64,000 bases of DNA from Tessaracoccus caeni (GTDB taxonomy: Bacteria > Actinomycetota > Actinomycetes > Propionibacteriales > Propionibacteriaceae): NCBI RefSeq assembly GCF_029211185.1, contig NZ_JARGDO010000002.1:1-64000 (forward strand), given 5' to 3'. Shown piece after piece: positions 45,020-50,200 of this stretch; the first letter of the stretch is position 1, and every line of letters begins with the position of its first letter. The notes beneath the pieces are model-generated. The model was not told the DNA's origin and ran no database searches. It saw nothing but the letters and a program-made list of their open reading frames with translations. A program made the translations under genes and the position numbers.

Positions 45020-45076
45020 CATTCCCGCATTCCCCCATTCCCGCATTCCCGGAAAATCGGCCAGTGGCCGATTTTC
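45020..45076. repeat. Short CATTCCCGC repeats and a 25-bp palindrome of the AAAATCGGCCA family
   Basis: Four degenerate copies of CATTCCCGC (about 45020-45051) run into a perfect palindrome at 45052-45076, with arms GAAAATCGGCCA around one G. The rest of the spacer 44938-45167 holds one decayed relative (GCGCAAAAGTGGCCAGAAC) and no gene. Confidence 0.7.
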
Positions 45077-45233: not shown

Positions 45234-46115
45234 TTGACCGCGATCAGAGCAGCCGGCATCCGCAAGACTTACGGCGACACGACGGTCCTGGACGGGATCG
45301 ACGTCGCTCTCCAGCCCGGTCAGGCCGTCGCCCTTCTGGGGCCTAACGGCGCGGGCAAGACCACCACCGTCGAGATCCTGATGGGCTTCGTCGACCGCGA
45401 CGGCGGCACCGTCGAGGTGCTCGGGGTCGATCCGGCGTCCCAGCGCGGCGATTCCTGGCGCTCCCGCGTCGGCATGGTCGTGCAGCAGGGACGCGACCGG
45501 CCCAAATGGCGCGTCCACGAGTTCCTGCGTTGGATCCATGCTCACTATCCAGAAGGCCCACGGCTGCGCAGCGTCGACGAGATGCTGGATGCCTTCGAGC
45601 TTCATGAGCACGCCCACAAAACTCTGGTCACGCTTTCGGGTGGCCTCCGACGACGGCTCGATCTGGCCGCCGCTCTCATCGCACGTCCCGATCTGCTCGT
45701 CCTCGATGAGCCTACGACGGGCCTCGACCCCGTTGCCAAGCGGGCCGTGCACGACATCGTGGCCGACCAGATCGACACCGGCACTGCACTCCTGCTCACC
45801 ACTCACGATCTCGCCGAGGCCGACCGCCTGGCGGGCCGCATCCTGATCCTCAACCGCGGCACGATCGTCGCCGAGGGCTCGCCCGACCAGCTGCGCCGTC
45901 AGGTGGAGAGCAACGTCGAGATCACGTGGAACGCCGACGGAGCGCACCACGTTCACGTCACGACGGCGCCTGAGGCCTTCGTGCGCGACCTTCTCCGCGA
46001 CGACGTCACCGGCTTGGAGGTGCGTCGCACCAGCCTGGAAGATGCCTATCTCGCCCTGGTCGACCCCAACCCCGATTCCCACAAGAACCTGATCGACGAG
46101 GAGGCATCACGATGA
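45234..46115 (+). CDS. ABC-2-type transporter ATP-binding protein
   Basis: A 293-residue ATPase. It has Walker A GPNGAGKTTTVEI, signature LSGGLRRRLDLAAALI, Walker B LLVLDEPTTGLDP and switch LLTTHDLAEADRL, with a C-terminal tail as in drug-export ATPases. The TTG at 45234 is chosen because AAGGAGGAG lies 5 nt upstream and the protein proper begins there. It is first in an operon with an ABC-2 permease and an XRE regulator, joined by 4-bp overlaps. A promoter with overlapping dyad precedes it. Confidence 0.9.
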   Translation: MTAIRAAGIRKTYGDTTVLDGIDVALQPGQAVALLGPNGAGKTTTVEILMGFVDRDGGTVEVLGVDPASQRGDSWRSRVGMVVQQGRDRPKWRVHEFLRWIHAHYPEGPRLRSVDEMLDAFELHEHAHKTLVTLSGGLRRRLDLAAALIARPDLLVLDEPTTGLDPVAKRAVHDIVADQIDTGTALLLTTHDLAEADRLAGRILILNRGTIVAEGSPDQLRRQVESNVEITWNADGAHHVHVTTAPEAFVRDLLRDDVTGLEVRRTSLEDAYLALVDPNPDSHKNLIDEEASR

Positions 46116-46960
46116 GCAGCACCCCCTGGCTCCGCGCCGGTTGGCTACAGGCCAAGACCGAGCTCCGGATCAACTTCCTCACCCCGTCGTTCCTCGCCAC
46201 GGTGATTGGACCTATCATCTCGGTCGTGGTGGTGTGGTTCGTGCTGGGCAGCACCAACTACGACGCGACCGACATCCTCGGCGCGGCCTTCGCCCTGGCC
46301 GGCATGCTCGGCGTCTCGGGGGCCATGGCAGCATTCGGTGTGATGAGCGAGATGTATACCGAACGCACCGAGGGCACCCTGTTGCGCCTCAGGATGGTGC
46401 CTGACGGCATCCGGTCCTGGGTCTTCGGCAAGACGCTCTCCGTCGGCTTGTACATGCTGTTCACCGCGGGCGTGATGGCCGCAGGCACCTTCATCGCCTT
46501 CCCCTCGCTGATTCCGGCCTCCGTCCTGCAGGTCGCGGCCCTCGTCGCGGTGCTCCTGGCGTCGTACTTCGTCTTCCTTCCTCTGGGCATCATGGCCGGA
46601 ACCCTGACGCGAACCACCGCCGGATTGACGATCGCGATGCTGGTCTTCTTCGCCCTCTATGCGGCCAGCGGCACCGTCTTCCCCATCACCTACTACCCCG
46701 AAGCACTGCAGTGGGTGGTCGGAGCGACGCCGTTCTACTGGAGCGCGCACATCGCGCGCTGGGCGCTGCTGCCTGCCGAGGCGGGAACCGCCGAACTGCT
46801 GGGCACCTTCCAGCCCCTCCTGGGCCTGGGCGTGATGACGGCGTGGGCCATCGTCGCCTACGCCCTGGCACCGCGGGTGCTGCGACGGGGCATCCGCCGC
46901 GAAACCGTAGGCGCGCTGATGGCCGCCCGCGATCGCCTGGCCGCCCAGGGGTACGCGTGA
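46112..46960 (+). CDS. ABC-2-type permease
   Basis: A 282-residue protein with six membrane segments and the ABC-2 pattern: EMYTERTEGTLLRLRMVPDG in the first cytoplasmic loop and LTIAMLVFFALYAASGTVFP near the C-terminus. It overlaps the ATPase gene by 4 bp and the XRE gene by 4 bp. The complex is probably an exporter; substrate unknown. Confidence 0.88.
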   Translation: MSSTPWLRAGWLQAKTELRINFLTPSFLATVIGPIISVVVVWFVLGSTNYDATDILGAAFALAGMLGVSGAMAAFGVMSEMYTERTEGTLLRLRMVPDGIRSWVFGKTLSVGLYMLFTAGVMAAGTFIAFPSLIPASVLQVAALVAVLLASYFVFLPLGIMAGTLTRTTAGLTIAMLVFFALYAASGTVFPITYYPEALQWVVGATPFYWSAHIARWALLPAEAGTAELLGTFQPLLGLGVMTAWAIVAYALAPRVLRRGIRRETVGALMAARDRLAAQGYA

Positions 46961-47190
46961 GCCCGAAGCCCGACGAGCAGGTCCGCAATCGGCTGGCGGT
47001 GCTCCGGGCCGATCGCGGGGTGTCTCGTCGTCAGCTGGCCGAGGCGCTGGGCATTCACTACCAGACGATGGGCTATCTGGAGCGCGGCGAGTTCGCGCCG
47101 TCGCTGCACCTGGCGCTGCGGATCGCGCGCTACTTCGACGTGCCCGTGGAGTCGGTGTTCAGCCTCGACGACTTCCCGCCCCTCCGCTGA
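46957..47190 (+). CDS. Small XRE-family regulator (YozG/Cro-like)
   Basis: A 77-residue HTH protein with RNRLAVLRADRGVSRRQLAE, then GIHYQTMGYLERGEFAPSLH and FDVPVESVFSLDDFPPL. These match the short Cro-like regulators often encoded with ABC-2 exporters. The GTG at 46957 overlaps the permease stop (GTGA). It probably represses its own operon through the dyad at 45180-45201. Confidence 0.85.
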   Translation: MSPKPDEQVRNRLAVLRADRGVSRRQLAEALGIHYQTMGYLERGEFAPSLHLALRIARYFDVPVESVFSLDDFPPLR

Positions 47191-47256
47191 CGCCCCCCAA
47201 CCCGTCTGCCCGGCTCCGCACCCAGGTTCTGGCCGATTCTTCAGCCCAGACACCGC

Positions 47257-47320
47257 AAAATCGGCCAATGGCCCATTTTTCGGTGTCTAGTCAGGAAAAT
47301 CGGCCAATGGCCGATTTTCC
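47257..47320. repeat. Two palindromes of the AAAATCGGCCA family
   Basis: 47257-47279 has arms AAAATCGGCCA with one mismatch. 47294-47320 is a perfect 27-bp palindrome with arms GGAAAATCGGCCA around one A. They lie between the XRE gene and the mshA-mshB fusion, in a 240-bp spacer with no gene. Confidence 0.75.
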
Positions 47321-47430: not shown

Positions 47431-49368
47431 ATGAGCCTGCGCATCGCCTTCGTCTGCTTGCACACCTCGCCGCTCGACCGGGCCGGCACCGCCGACGCGG
47501 GCGGCATGAACGTGATGATCCGCGCGCTCGCCCGGGCGCTGGTCCGGGCCGGCCACCGCGTCGAGTTCTTCACCCGGCGCTCTCATCCCGATCAGCCTGC
47601 CACCGAGATCTTCGACGACCTCCTGGTGCTCAACCGGATCGACGCTGGCCCGCCGGCCGTCCTTCCCAAGAGCGAGATCGATCAGTACATCGACGAATTC
47701 CGCACCAACCTTGGCACGCTGCGCGGCTTCGACGTGGTGCACTCGCATCATTGGATGTCCGGCGTGGCCGCGCTCCCGCTGGCGCGCGAGGCCGGCATCC
47801 CCCACGTGATGACCTTCCACTCCGTCGCCGCCCATCCCAATTCGCCGTTGCACGACGGCGAGCCGCCGGAGTCCCCGGCGCGGGTGCCGGGCGAGGTGCT
47901 GTGCGCCGAGCAGTCCGACCTGGTGATCGCGGTGTCCAAGTACGAGGCCGCCGTCACCATCGGCCGCTGCAACGCCGACCCGGAGAAGGTCGCGATCGTG
48001 CGACCCGGCGTCAACACCGAGCTGTTCCGGCCGGCCCTTCGCGAGGAGCAGGGCTGGACACCCGAGCCCGGAATCCGCGCCGGCTACGTCCTCTTCGCCG
48101 CCCGGCTGCAGCCGCTGAAGGCCCCCGACCTGGCCATCCGCACCCTGGCCGAGGTGCCGGAGGCGATCCGCCCAGACCTGGTGATCGTCGGCCAGACCTC
48201 ACCCGACTTCGCCGGCTACGAGGACGAGCTGCACCGCCTGGTCGACGAGCTGGGCCTCACCGAGACGGTGCGCTTCCTGCCCGGTCGCGACCGACCGGAG
48301 CTGGCGAAGGTGATCCGGCACGCCAGCGTGATGCTGGTGCCGTCGTTCTCCGAGACCTTCGGACTGATCGCGCTGGAGGCCTCAGCCTCCGGCGTGCCGG
48401 TGCTCGCGGCCGCTGCCGGCGGCCTCACCGAGGCCATCTGCAACACCCACACCGGGCTGCTCATCCCCACCCGCGATGCCGCCGTCTGGGGCCAGGAGCT
48501 GACCGGTCTCCTGACAGACGACGAGCGGCGCGCACTGATGGGTGCCACCGGTCGCCAGCGGGCCGAGGACATGACTTGGCCGAAGGTGGCGGAGCGCACC
48601 ACCGCCGCCTATCGTCGCGCCATCGGCGCCCGACTGACCCGCCGCGTCTGCTTCGTGCACGCCCACCCCGACGACGAGACCCTCGCCTCCGGCGCGCTGA
48701 TCGCGCATCTCGCCGACGAGGGCATCCACGTCTCGGTCCTCACCGCCACCCGAGGAGAGATGGGCGAGGTCGTTCCCGGCCCGCTGTCCCACCTGCTAGG
48801 CACCATCGAGCTGGAGCATCGTCGAGAGGCCGAACTGGCCGGCGCGCTCAACGTGATCGGTGTGGAGCGCCACGCCTACCTTGGCACGCCCCCGGCGCGG
48901 GCGACGGAGGAACCTCGTCGTTACCGCGACTCCGGAATGACCTGGATCCGAGAGGGCCTGGCGGGCCCCGCCGACGATGCCGATCCCCGCTCGCTCTGCG
49001 CGGCGGATCTCGACGAGGTGATCGCCGACGTCAAGGCCTTCCTGATCGCCGACCGAGCCGAACTCGCGGTGAGCTACGCCGACGACGGCGGCTACGGTCA
49101 CCCCGACCACGTCCGGATGCACCACGCCACCAAGGCCGCCGCCGAGCAGCTGGGCATCCCGTTCGCCGAACTCACCCCCGTCCAGGACGACGGCGTGGTC
49201 TGGTTCGCCCTGGACCGCCTGCTGCCCCGCGTCGCCGAGGCCCTGGGTCACCACCGCACCCAGCTCACCGTGCACGGCTCGTCGCTCACCCACTCGGGCG
49301 GCCAGACCGAGGACATCCTGACCTCCACCGGCCTCCGCGGCACCGGCTTCACCCTCCCCCTCCCCTGA
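47431..49368 (+). CDS. mshA-mshB: MshA-MshB fusion: mycothiol glycosyltransferase and deacetylase in one chain
   Basis: A 645-residue protein. Residues 1-400 are a GT4 glycosyltransferase like MshA, which joins UDP-GlcNAc to inositol 3-phosphate. It has TSPLDRAGTADAGGMNVMIR at the N-terminus, PGVNTELFRP, ARLQPLKAPDL with donor-phosphate residues R225 and K230, and SFSETFGLIALEASASGVPV with E316. Residues 404-645 are an MshB-like PIG-L deacetylase, with zinc-ligand candidates H412 and D415 (HAHPDDETLASG) and H557 (YGHPDH), and TATRGEMGEV. MshB acts two steps later on GlcNAc-inositol. The deacetylase part is shorter than the roughly 300 residues of M. tuberculosis MshB. No stop, frameshift or internal start separates the parts. 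Confidence 0.88.
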   Translation: MSLRIAFVCLHTSPLDRAGTADAGGMNVMIRALARALVRAGHRVEFFTRRSHPDQPATEIFDDLLVLNRIDAGPPAVLPKSEIDQYIDEFRTNLGTLRGFDVVHSHHWMSGVAALPLAREAGIPHVMTFHSVAAHPNSPLHDGEPPESPARVPGEVLCAEQSDLVIAVSKYEAAVTIGRCNADPEKVAIVRPGVNTELFRPALREEQGWTPEPGIRAGYVLFAARLQPLKAPDLAIRTLAEVPEAIRPDLVIVGQTSPDFAGYEDELHRLVDELGLTETVRFLPGRDRPELAKVIRHASVMLVPSFSETFGLIALEASASGVPVLAAAAGGLTEAICNTHTGLLIPTRDAAVWGQELTGLLTDDERRALMGATGRQRAEDMTWPKVAERTTAAYRRAIGARLTRRVCFVHAHPDDETLASGALIAHLADEGIHVSVLTATRGEMGEVVPGPLSHLLGTIELEHRREAELAGALNVIGVERHAYLGTPPARATEEPRRYRDSGMTWIREGLAGPADDADPRSLCAADLDEVIADVKAFLIADRAELAVSYADDGGYGHPDHVRMHHATKAAAEQLGIPFAELTPVQDDGVVWFALDRLLPRVAEALGHHRTQLTVHGSSLTHSGGQTEDILTSTGLRGTGFTLPLP

Positions 49369-49381
49369 CCCCCTCACTCCC

Positions 49382-49524
49382 GGAAAATCGGCCACTGGCC
49401 GATTTTCCCGGGTCGTGTACCGAAAATCGGCCAGTACTTCGACGACGCCGACGACCGCGTACCGGGCGTTGGCCGATTTTCCTGGGTCTTGTACCGAAAA
49501 TCGGCCAGTGGCCGATTTTCGGTA
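49382..49524. repeat. Three palindromes of the AAAATCGGCCA family after mshA-mshB
   Basis: 49382-49408 is a perfect 27-bp palindrome. 49421-49433 and 49469-49482 are the two arms of one palindrome split by 35 bp. 49492-49524 is a perfect 33-bp palindrome, the longest, with arms ending TACCGAAAATCGGCCA. They occupy the spacer between the fusion gene and the histidine phosphatase gene. Confidence 0.8.
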
Positions 49525-49612: not shown

Positions 49613-50200
49613 ATGCGCCTCATCCTCATCCGTCACGGACAGACCCAGAGCAACGTCAACAGGGAGCTCGACACCGCCTACCCGGGGGCACCGCTCGATG
49701 AGACGGGCCTGACGCAGGCGGAGAAGCTGGTCGAGCGGATCGCGCATGAGCCCATCGAGGCGGTCTACGCATCGACGCTGACCCGGGCGCAGCAGACCGC
49801 CGCCCCGCTGGCTGCCGCACGCGGTCTGGAGGTGCAGGTGGTCGACGGGCTCCAGGAGATCGCCGCCGGCGTCGACGAGATGAGCACCAACTGGCGCCCG
49901 TACATCGAGATGCTGTTCTCGTGGGCGCCGGACAATCTCGACGTCGGCATGGAAGGCGGCGAGACGGCCCGCCAGTTCATCGAGCGCTACACCAGAGCTA
50001 TCGCCCAGATCGAGTCCGCGGGCCACGAGTGCGCCGCCCTGGTCAGCCACGGCGCCGCACTACGCGTCTGGGGTCTCACCTGTGTCCCGACGATCGACCA
50101 GTCCATCGCTCAGCCGCTGCCCAACACCAACTGGATCGTGATGAACGGTTCCCTTGCCGATGGCTGGACCATCGAGCAGTGGGGCGACCACACCCTCTGA
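49613..50200 (+). CDS. Histidine phosphatase (phosphoglycerate mutase superfamily)
   Basis: A 195-residue phosphatase with LILIRHGQTQSNVNRELDTA at the N-terminus (catalytic RHG), TRAQQTAAPLAA, and a second His in ALVSHGAALRVW. An Asp/Glu-rich stretch near 95-115, DNLDVGMEGGETARQF, fits the GpmB/CobC-like group. The ATG at 49613 follows TAGCCT. It is the first gene after mshA-mshB, 245 bp on. The step between MshA and MshB removes the inositol 3-phosphate, and a phosphatase of this family would fit. That is inference from position. Confidence 0.8.
   Translation: MRLILIRHGQTQSNVNRELDTAYPGAPLDETGLTQAEKLVERIAHEPIEAVYASTLTRAQQTAAPLAAARGLEVQVVDGLQEIAAGVDEMSTNWRPYIEMLFSWAPDNLDVGMEGGETARQFIERYTRAIAQIESAGHECAALVSHGAALRVWGLTCVPTIDQSIAQPLPNTNWIVMNGSLADGWTIEQWGDHTL

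Follow-up and report, generated by a model that had tools for sequence, protein, structure and literature searches.

Mycothiol protects actinobacteria and serves most of them as their main thiol buffer. In a stretch of 64,000 nucleotides from Tessaracoccus caeni (contig NZ_JARGDO010000002.1, positions 1 to 64,000; referred to here as the window), a single gene at 47431-49368 joins a glycosyltransferase (GT) resembling MshA, the enzyme of step 1 of mycothiol synthesis, to a deacetylase resembling MshB, the enzyme of step 3. The phosphatase that acts between the two steps, in the pathway order outlined in PMC4360819, lies outside the fusion. This locus raises the questions of whether the join is real, what the two halves do and why they are coupled across an intervening reaction. 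We conclude that the fusion is most probably a two-domain enzyme belonging to a variant form of the mycothiol pathway, with MshA as N-terminal half and a short MshB-type deacetylase as C-terminal half, and that it stems from a two-gene unit. The features of the gene are:

47431..49368, forward strand: fused gene of 645 residues, MshA-like family 4 glycosyltransferase (GT4) plus short MshB-like PIG-L deacetylase (open reading frame (ORF), Pfam, NCBIfam and AlphaFold2 model)
47431..48627, forward strand: GT-B glycosyltransferase half, residues 1-399, MshA-like, predicted UDP-GlcNAc:inositol-phosphate N-acetylglucosaminyltransferase (GlcNAc, N-acetylglucosamine)
48628..48642, forward strand: junction, residues 400-404 (secondary structure of the AlphaFold2 model)
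48640..49365, forward strand: PIG-L deacetylase half, residues 404-645, short MshB-like
48664..48678, forward strand: HPDDE motif, residues 412-416, corresponding to H13, D15 and D16 of Mycobacterium tuberculosis MshB (H, D and D in 67/67 pair-type rows)
48751..48753, forward strand: R441 of the C-terminal half (R in 67/67 pair-type deacetylases, L in 14/14 MshB rows, G in 7/7 Mca rows)
48886..48921, forward strand: pair-type insert ahead of the YRDSGM motif, with R490 (58/67) and R496 (62/67), gaps in MshB and Mca rows
49093..49110, forward strand: YGHPDH motif, residues 555-560, corresponding to Y142, G143, H144, D146 and H147 of M. tuberculosis MshB (alignment)

The gene is one ORF with an ATG start and no internal stop. 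Pfam places GT4 domains inside residues 24-377 and a PIG-L domain at residues 408-570 (PF02585, 82.9 bits, above the gathering score of 28.2). The best NCBIfam match is MshA for the N-terminal half (TIGR03449, residues 4-398, 1.4e-90) and MshB for the C-terminal half (TIGR03445, residues 408-585, 2.7e-36). In the AlphaFold2 model the last GT helix (383-400) passes almost straight into the first PIG-L strand (405-410), and a long linker is absent. When the predicted structure was ranked with Foldseek, the best matches of the two halves were MshA and MshB, respectively; PDB matches were taken from the PDB entries among the ranked chains, and the second one of the GT half was sucrose-phosphate synthase 6kih. 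The motifs named in an earlier note on this DNA, HPDDE, YGHPDH and a glycine-rich N-terminus, are all in place, the last with the residues GGMN. The same uninterrupted fused ORF is present in three congeners (G095, G129 and G084), 66-70% identical per half, and a fusion by assembly join or sequencing error is therefore ruled out, including the joining of two frames that the note had named as its own possible refutation. Its proposal of two mycothiol-type enzymes in one 645-residue chain is supported. Two further members of the genus (g1) carry the join: in G119 a frame change inside the GT half breaks the gene (loci L013 / L123), and the fused protein of G054 is only about 50% identical.

We next consider the GT half. 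In Corynebacterium glutamicum MshA, K78, Y110, T134 and R154 are said, in work by Vetting from 2008, to hold the inositol phosphate. With the residues numbered as in that enzyme, the GT half keeps H9, G22, G23, N25, K78, H133, R154, R231, K236, E316 and E324, and has H in place of Y110 and S in place of T134. Among 80 rows of this GT type, from which the broken G119 copy was dropped, G17, D20, G22, G23, N25, W111, S113, H133, E150, R154, E158, R231, K236 and E324 are invariant and H9, K78 and E316 are found in 79; the substitutions are likewise nearly general (Y110 to H in 79/80, T134 to S in 79/80, S317 to T in 80/80). H133, K236, E316 and E324 appear among the substrate-binding residues of MshA listed in PMC4506291. 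The picture is that of a phosphate pocket retuned rather than lost. Direct use of free inositol as acceptor, which would need no phosphatase, is disfavoured because K78 and R154 were kept where loss was expected, though Y110 and T134 are changed.

On a quick maximum-likelihood (ML) tree of GTs, the 80 rows lie on one side of a branch, with canonical MshA and two rows of a third type opposite (support 91). The 34 canonical rows group with a Shimodaira-Hasegawa-like approximate likelihood ratio test (SH-aLRT) value of 97, while the type's own branch has a support of 51, probably due to bad rooting by three very long paralogues. The GT half thus shares with C. glutamicum MshA (3c48/3c4q) the GT-B fold, the donor residues, K78, R154, H133 and the glycine-rich N-terminal loop, but belongs to a separate sister lineage with a median identity of 37% to canonical rows (52% within the type, 53% within canonical MshA), with the substitutions Y110H, T134S and S317T and with a deacetylase attached. 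A third MshA-like GT group, found in G022, G044, G061, G076 and G009:C13 (L199, L179) with 333-343 bits to the MshA model, groups as the sister of canonical MshA in the tree, where two rows on long branches represent it. G009 holds both a third-group and a pair-type GT.

The source genome (4.16 Mb in 82 contigs; listed completeness 100%, contamination 1.59%) encodes MshC (598 bits, cut-off 485), MshD (211 bits, cut-off 163) and a separate Mca, the mycothiol S-conjugate amidase (418 bits, cut-off 277.15). Among the 11 of 18 first-look candidates that were scored, no second MshA match at E 1e-40 or better was found, which leaves the fusion as the only MshA candidate alongside MshC and MshD in this genome. 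With the fusion protein itself (P0001) as query, the next-best match has 77.5 bits. Donor and acceptor residues, fold, this lack of another MshA match and the co-occurrence with MshC described below lead us to infer that the N-terminal half is the organism's MshA, transferring GlcNAc from UDP-GlcNAc to inositol phosphate.

To follow the GT type across genomes, matches to P0001 at E 1e-80 or better were counted in 147 evenly drawn genomes of its family (Propionibacteriaceae). The type was present in 92 genomes and MshA above cut-off in 12 (all g19); no genome had both. In the 106 nearly complete genomes (at least 95% complete, at most 5% contaminated), MshC was found beside the GT type in 69/69 and beside canonical MshA in 12/12, whereas 25 genomes with neither GT kind had MshC in 7 and lacked it in 18. 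We quote this co-occurrence as counts, since the Fisher test is uncorrected for the kinship of the genomes. MshB above cut-off was absent from 61 of the 92 genomes with the GT type. The class was likewise sampled evenly, with 374 genomes of which three also belong to the family draw; MshA above cut-off was found in 338 and the GT type in five (G000, G341, G375, G480 and G504; E 1.1e-97 or better). The MshA matches of these five range from E 8.8e-87 to about 5e-91, none near the cut-off, and MshC is found in all five (E 3.5e-162 or better). The search also took in twenty genomes from named loci, picked for holding a relative of P0001: 15 have the pair of GT and deacetylase (Labedella, Cryobacterium, Mycetocola and Brachybacterium), in four only a relative of the deacetylase was found (Glaciihabitans, Leucobacter and two Rothia), and the last is Nocardioides albus. 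MshC was above cut-off in 20/20, MshA and MshB in Nocardioides only. Within the genus g1, G112 has MshB, MshC and MshD above cut-off and no match to an MshA-type GT, and G105 has MshB above cut-off but neither a match at the level of MshC, nor one to MshD, nor an MshA-type GT; these are possible stages of pathway loss.

Turning to the C-terminal half, 70 deacetylases were found at loci with the pair and 67 were used, L121, L137 and L175 being left out because their extracted sequences contain a stop. In M. tuberculosis MshB numbering, H13, D15, D16, R68, D95, Y142, H144 and H147, which we take to be the zinc-binding and catalytic residues, are conserved together with D146 in 67/67 rows, the source included. 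Position 98 is M in 67/67 as in MshB and mixed in Mca (seven rows; the source genome's own was confirmed by the Mca model, the others by MshB-model score and tree), and position 143 is G in 64/67 as in MshB and P in the seven Mca rows. On a tree of 87 deacetylases, 59 of them taken from the 67 pair rows, the pair forms one clade (91), with Glaciihabitans and Leucobacter and then the Rothia proteins at its side, followed by M. tuberculosis MshB (SH-aLRT 94 and 90), whose row is a fragment and whose position is provisional; the separate MshB and Mca of genus g1 lie elsewhere, away from this clade. With that reservation about the fragment, tree, profile models and fold agree that the C-terminal half is nearer to MshB than to Mca, whose model TIGR03446 gives 72.7 bits only (cut-off 277.15).

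Compared with MshB of M. tuberculosis (1q74/4ewl), the C-terminal half has the same PIG-L fold, zinc and catalytic residues and RDSGM and GYGHPDH motifs, but it is a shorter type with its own insert and invariant arginine, matching the profile only to position 168 of 284. Type-specific residues are R441, R490, R496, W505 and H621 (H621 in 66/67). Mca is a homologous PIG-L enzyme from which the pair clade stands apart, with G and not P at position 143 and with a separate Mca in the genome. BshA and BshB of bacillithiol synthesis follow the same logic of GT4 plus PIG-L enzyme, acting on GlcNAc-malate according to the sections on them in PMC4360819 and PMC6282198; their acceptor is malate, and the GT half scores 95 bits with the BshA model against 306 with MshA. 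From its fold, catalytic residues and place beside MshA-like GTs, the C-terminal half would be a short MshB-type zinc deacetylase acting on the GlcNAc-inositol product.

The gene arrangement bears on the origin of the join. We examined 81 loci (60 stretches of the family, four of the class and the 17 of 35 named loci that match both halves), 80 of which hold the GT type, L179 having another GT. As they were drawn from the top of score lists favouring full-length matches (61 of the 92 type-bearing family genomes, window counted), the share of fusions is no estimate for the family. Fused ORFs also occur in other genera (G020, G136, G037, G109, G058 and G141). Of the unfused loci, 43 offer a candidate start codon for the deacetylase 1-5 bases inside the GT stop, 14 are adjacent otherwise, one has the genes about 0.8 kb apart and 11 carry the type in a stretch that lacks a deacetylase. 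Among the loci examined, joins recur, but the pair mostly consists of two neighbouring genes. On the GT tree, where many branches are weakly supported, the fused state requires six changes among 80 rows, so that the joined state changed more than once, and parsimony gives join and split as indistinguishable. The window's fused clade (with G095, G129 and G084) has an SH-aLRT of 95, with G054 elsewhere on a long branch. Most simply, the ancestral form would be a closely coupled gene pair.

Several observations weigh against a fused MshA-MshB enzyme. Both halves miss the curated cut-offs (MshA TIGR03449: 306.1 bits for the GT half and 304.1 for the full protein, 462.5 required; MshB TIGR03445: 128.7 bits over profile positions 2-168 of 284, 224.35 required), so that the assignment to MshA and MshB holds as best NCBIfam match and not as canonical membership. 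The match of the pair deacetylase to the MshB profile ends after roughly the first 60%, and the protein falls short of MshB by some 50 residues (230-270 residues as extracted in 63/67, separate MshB 294-306); because of this its substrate may differ from that of MshB. Identity to M. tuberculosis MshB (median 42% for pair rows, 50% for separate MshB) speaks against regarding it as the truer MshB. A separate mshB, which the earlier note had listed among its possible refutations, lies on the fusion's own contig (C22:188927-189790, 227 bits against 224.35) and may alone carry out deacetylation in the source organism; the catalytic residues of the C-terminal half are nonetheless intact, and the finding weakens its standing as the only deacetylase, not as a deacetylase. 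Only 12/81 loci are fused, window and broken G119 included. Eight of the 11 loci without a deacetylase in the stretch belong to g12 (L138, L143, L144, L146, L148, L149, L150 and L154), which indicates that joining is not needed for function; five g12 genomes (G052, G082, G093, G117 and G133) have a deacetylase, 51-55% identical, elsewhere. Finally, seven nearly complete genomes (14 over all 147) have MshC and neither GT kind, four of them (G022, G044, G061 and G076) holding the third-group GT, and G062, G100 and G142 (59, 69 and 85% complete) have the GT type with no MshC detected.

Taken together, we still favour the two-domain enzyme. The N-terminal half would make GlcNAc-inositol phosphate (GlcNAc-Ins-P), a phosphatase from outside the unit would yield GlcNAc-Ins, and the C-terminal half, with the separate MshB sharing the task or backing it up in the source genome, would yield glucosaminyl-inositol (GlcN-Ins) for MshC and then MshD. 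The joined chain would derive from a two-gene unit with often overlapping ends. Co-expression at a fixed ratio is a sufficient reason for the coupling; the channelling of intermediates that the earlier note proposed stays a hypothesis. The following alternatives overlap with this explanation, and their likelihoods are not shares of one whole.

It is possible, if unlikely, that the order of steps is swapped, the fused deacetylase acting on GlcNAc-Ins-P to give GlcN-Ins-P, with dephosphorylation after. This would explain the coupling of steps 1 and 3 without a phosphatase despite the textbook phosphatase between them, and would redefine the substrate of the missing phosphatase. The retained K78 and R154, reported as phosphate ligands in C. 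glutamicum MshA, lead one to expect a phosphorylated product, and in most loci the deacetylase closely follows or is fused to the GT; it is also shorter than MshB in its C-terminal part and holds conserved residues absent from MshB, namely R441, R490, R496 and H621. No other neighbour family was common to more than 10 of 83 stretches, in a comparison covering about 6 kb or less on each side, noisy from high-GC shadow ORFs and made with no stretch-by-stretch search for phosphatases. However, partners in an operon or fusion need not perform successive steps, and an arginine at the position of R441 is common in other PIG-L enzymes. We think it quite improbable that the C-terminal half is a bystander or another amidase, for instance on mycothiol conjugates, with the separate long MshB deacetylating in the source organism. 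A separate MshB above cut-off is indeed present here and in the other five fused g1 genomes, but it is absent from the other six fused genomes (two only 80% and 88% complete), a separate Mca already exists in the source genome, and the catalytic residues are kept throughout the pair rows, with MshB-like and not Mca-like residues at 98 and 143. A different glucosaminyl-cyclitol or sucrose-phosphate-like pathway, to which the two missed equivalog cut-offs and the match to 6kih might point, is highly improbable given the presence of MshC in all 69 nearly complete family genomes with the GT type, the absence of canonical MshA alongside and the mostly kept inositol-phosphate site.

As to the phosphatase of the intervening step and the surroundings of the fusion, the window contains:

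49613-50200: histidine phosphatase directly downstream of the fusion (Pfam 122 bits)
45234-47190: ABC-2 type transporter pair, then a Cro/C1-type helix-turn-helix (HTH) regulator, upstream of the fusion
45052-45076, 47256-47280, 47295-47319, 49383-49407 and 49496-49520: 25-base palindrome GAAAATCGGCCANTGGCCGATTTTC

The downstream histidine phosphatase was rejected as the unit's missing phosphatase, as it is not a conserved partner: apart from the window, only 3 of 82 other stretches have it next to the unit, and all of these are g1. It is about 31% identical to a histidine phosphatase upstream of mshC in the source genome (L219:8366-9028, C12; Pfam 158 bits). Of 20 mshC stretches sampled across several families, 12 contain homologues of the latter (tblastn, 147 bits or more); in the other eight (two g9, one g12, one f4, Cryobacterium, Labedella, Brachybacterium and Rothia) tblastn found none. 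This mshC-linked enzyme is a candidate GlcNAc-Ins-P phosphatase. Its M. tuberculosis member is presumably Rv2135c, going by gene order. The account of Rv2135c in PMC3866925 gives its substrate as unknown. The palindrome is present in five copies, four perfect and one with three mismatches, where chance would give 0.00. Each copy lies between or next to the genes for the ABC transporter, the HTH regulator, the fusion and the phosphatase. Its 19-base core has seven further copies in 400 kb of the source genome and none in 199 other loci (seven from the source genome), and it may represent an intergenic repeat or operator.

A description of an MshA-MshB fusion or of a divergent pair was not found in the open-access literature searched, subscription papers and supplements lying outside that scope. 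The fusion would be a variant, so far little noticed, on an established pathway, with both enzymes of known kinds. For specialists the surprise is moderate: over much of the family a divergent MshA takes the place of the canonical enzyme, and joining recurs across an intervening step. With steps 1 and 3 joined repeatedly, the position of the phosphatase, between or after them, becomes directly testable. In all 15 named Cryobacterium, Labedella, Mycetocola and Brachybacterium genomes the pair is present and both canonical enzymes are absent; by NCBIfam cut-offs these genomes read as having MshC without MshA or MshB, although under looser annotation the genes may still carry a label. For Clavibacter, which belongs to the same family as Cryobacterium, PMC5358740 reports both mshA and mshB. 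In the family of T. caeni, the data point towards a divergent second lineage of MshA/MshB, found in 92 of the 147 sampled genomes, where canonical MshA is absent.
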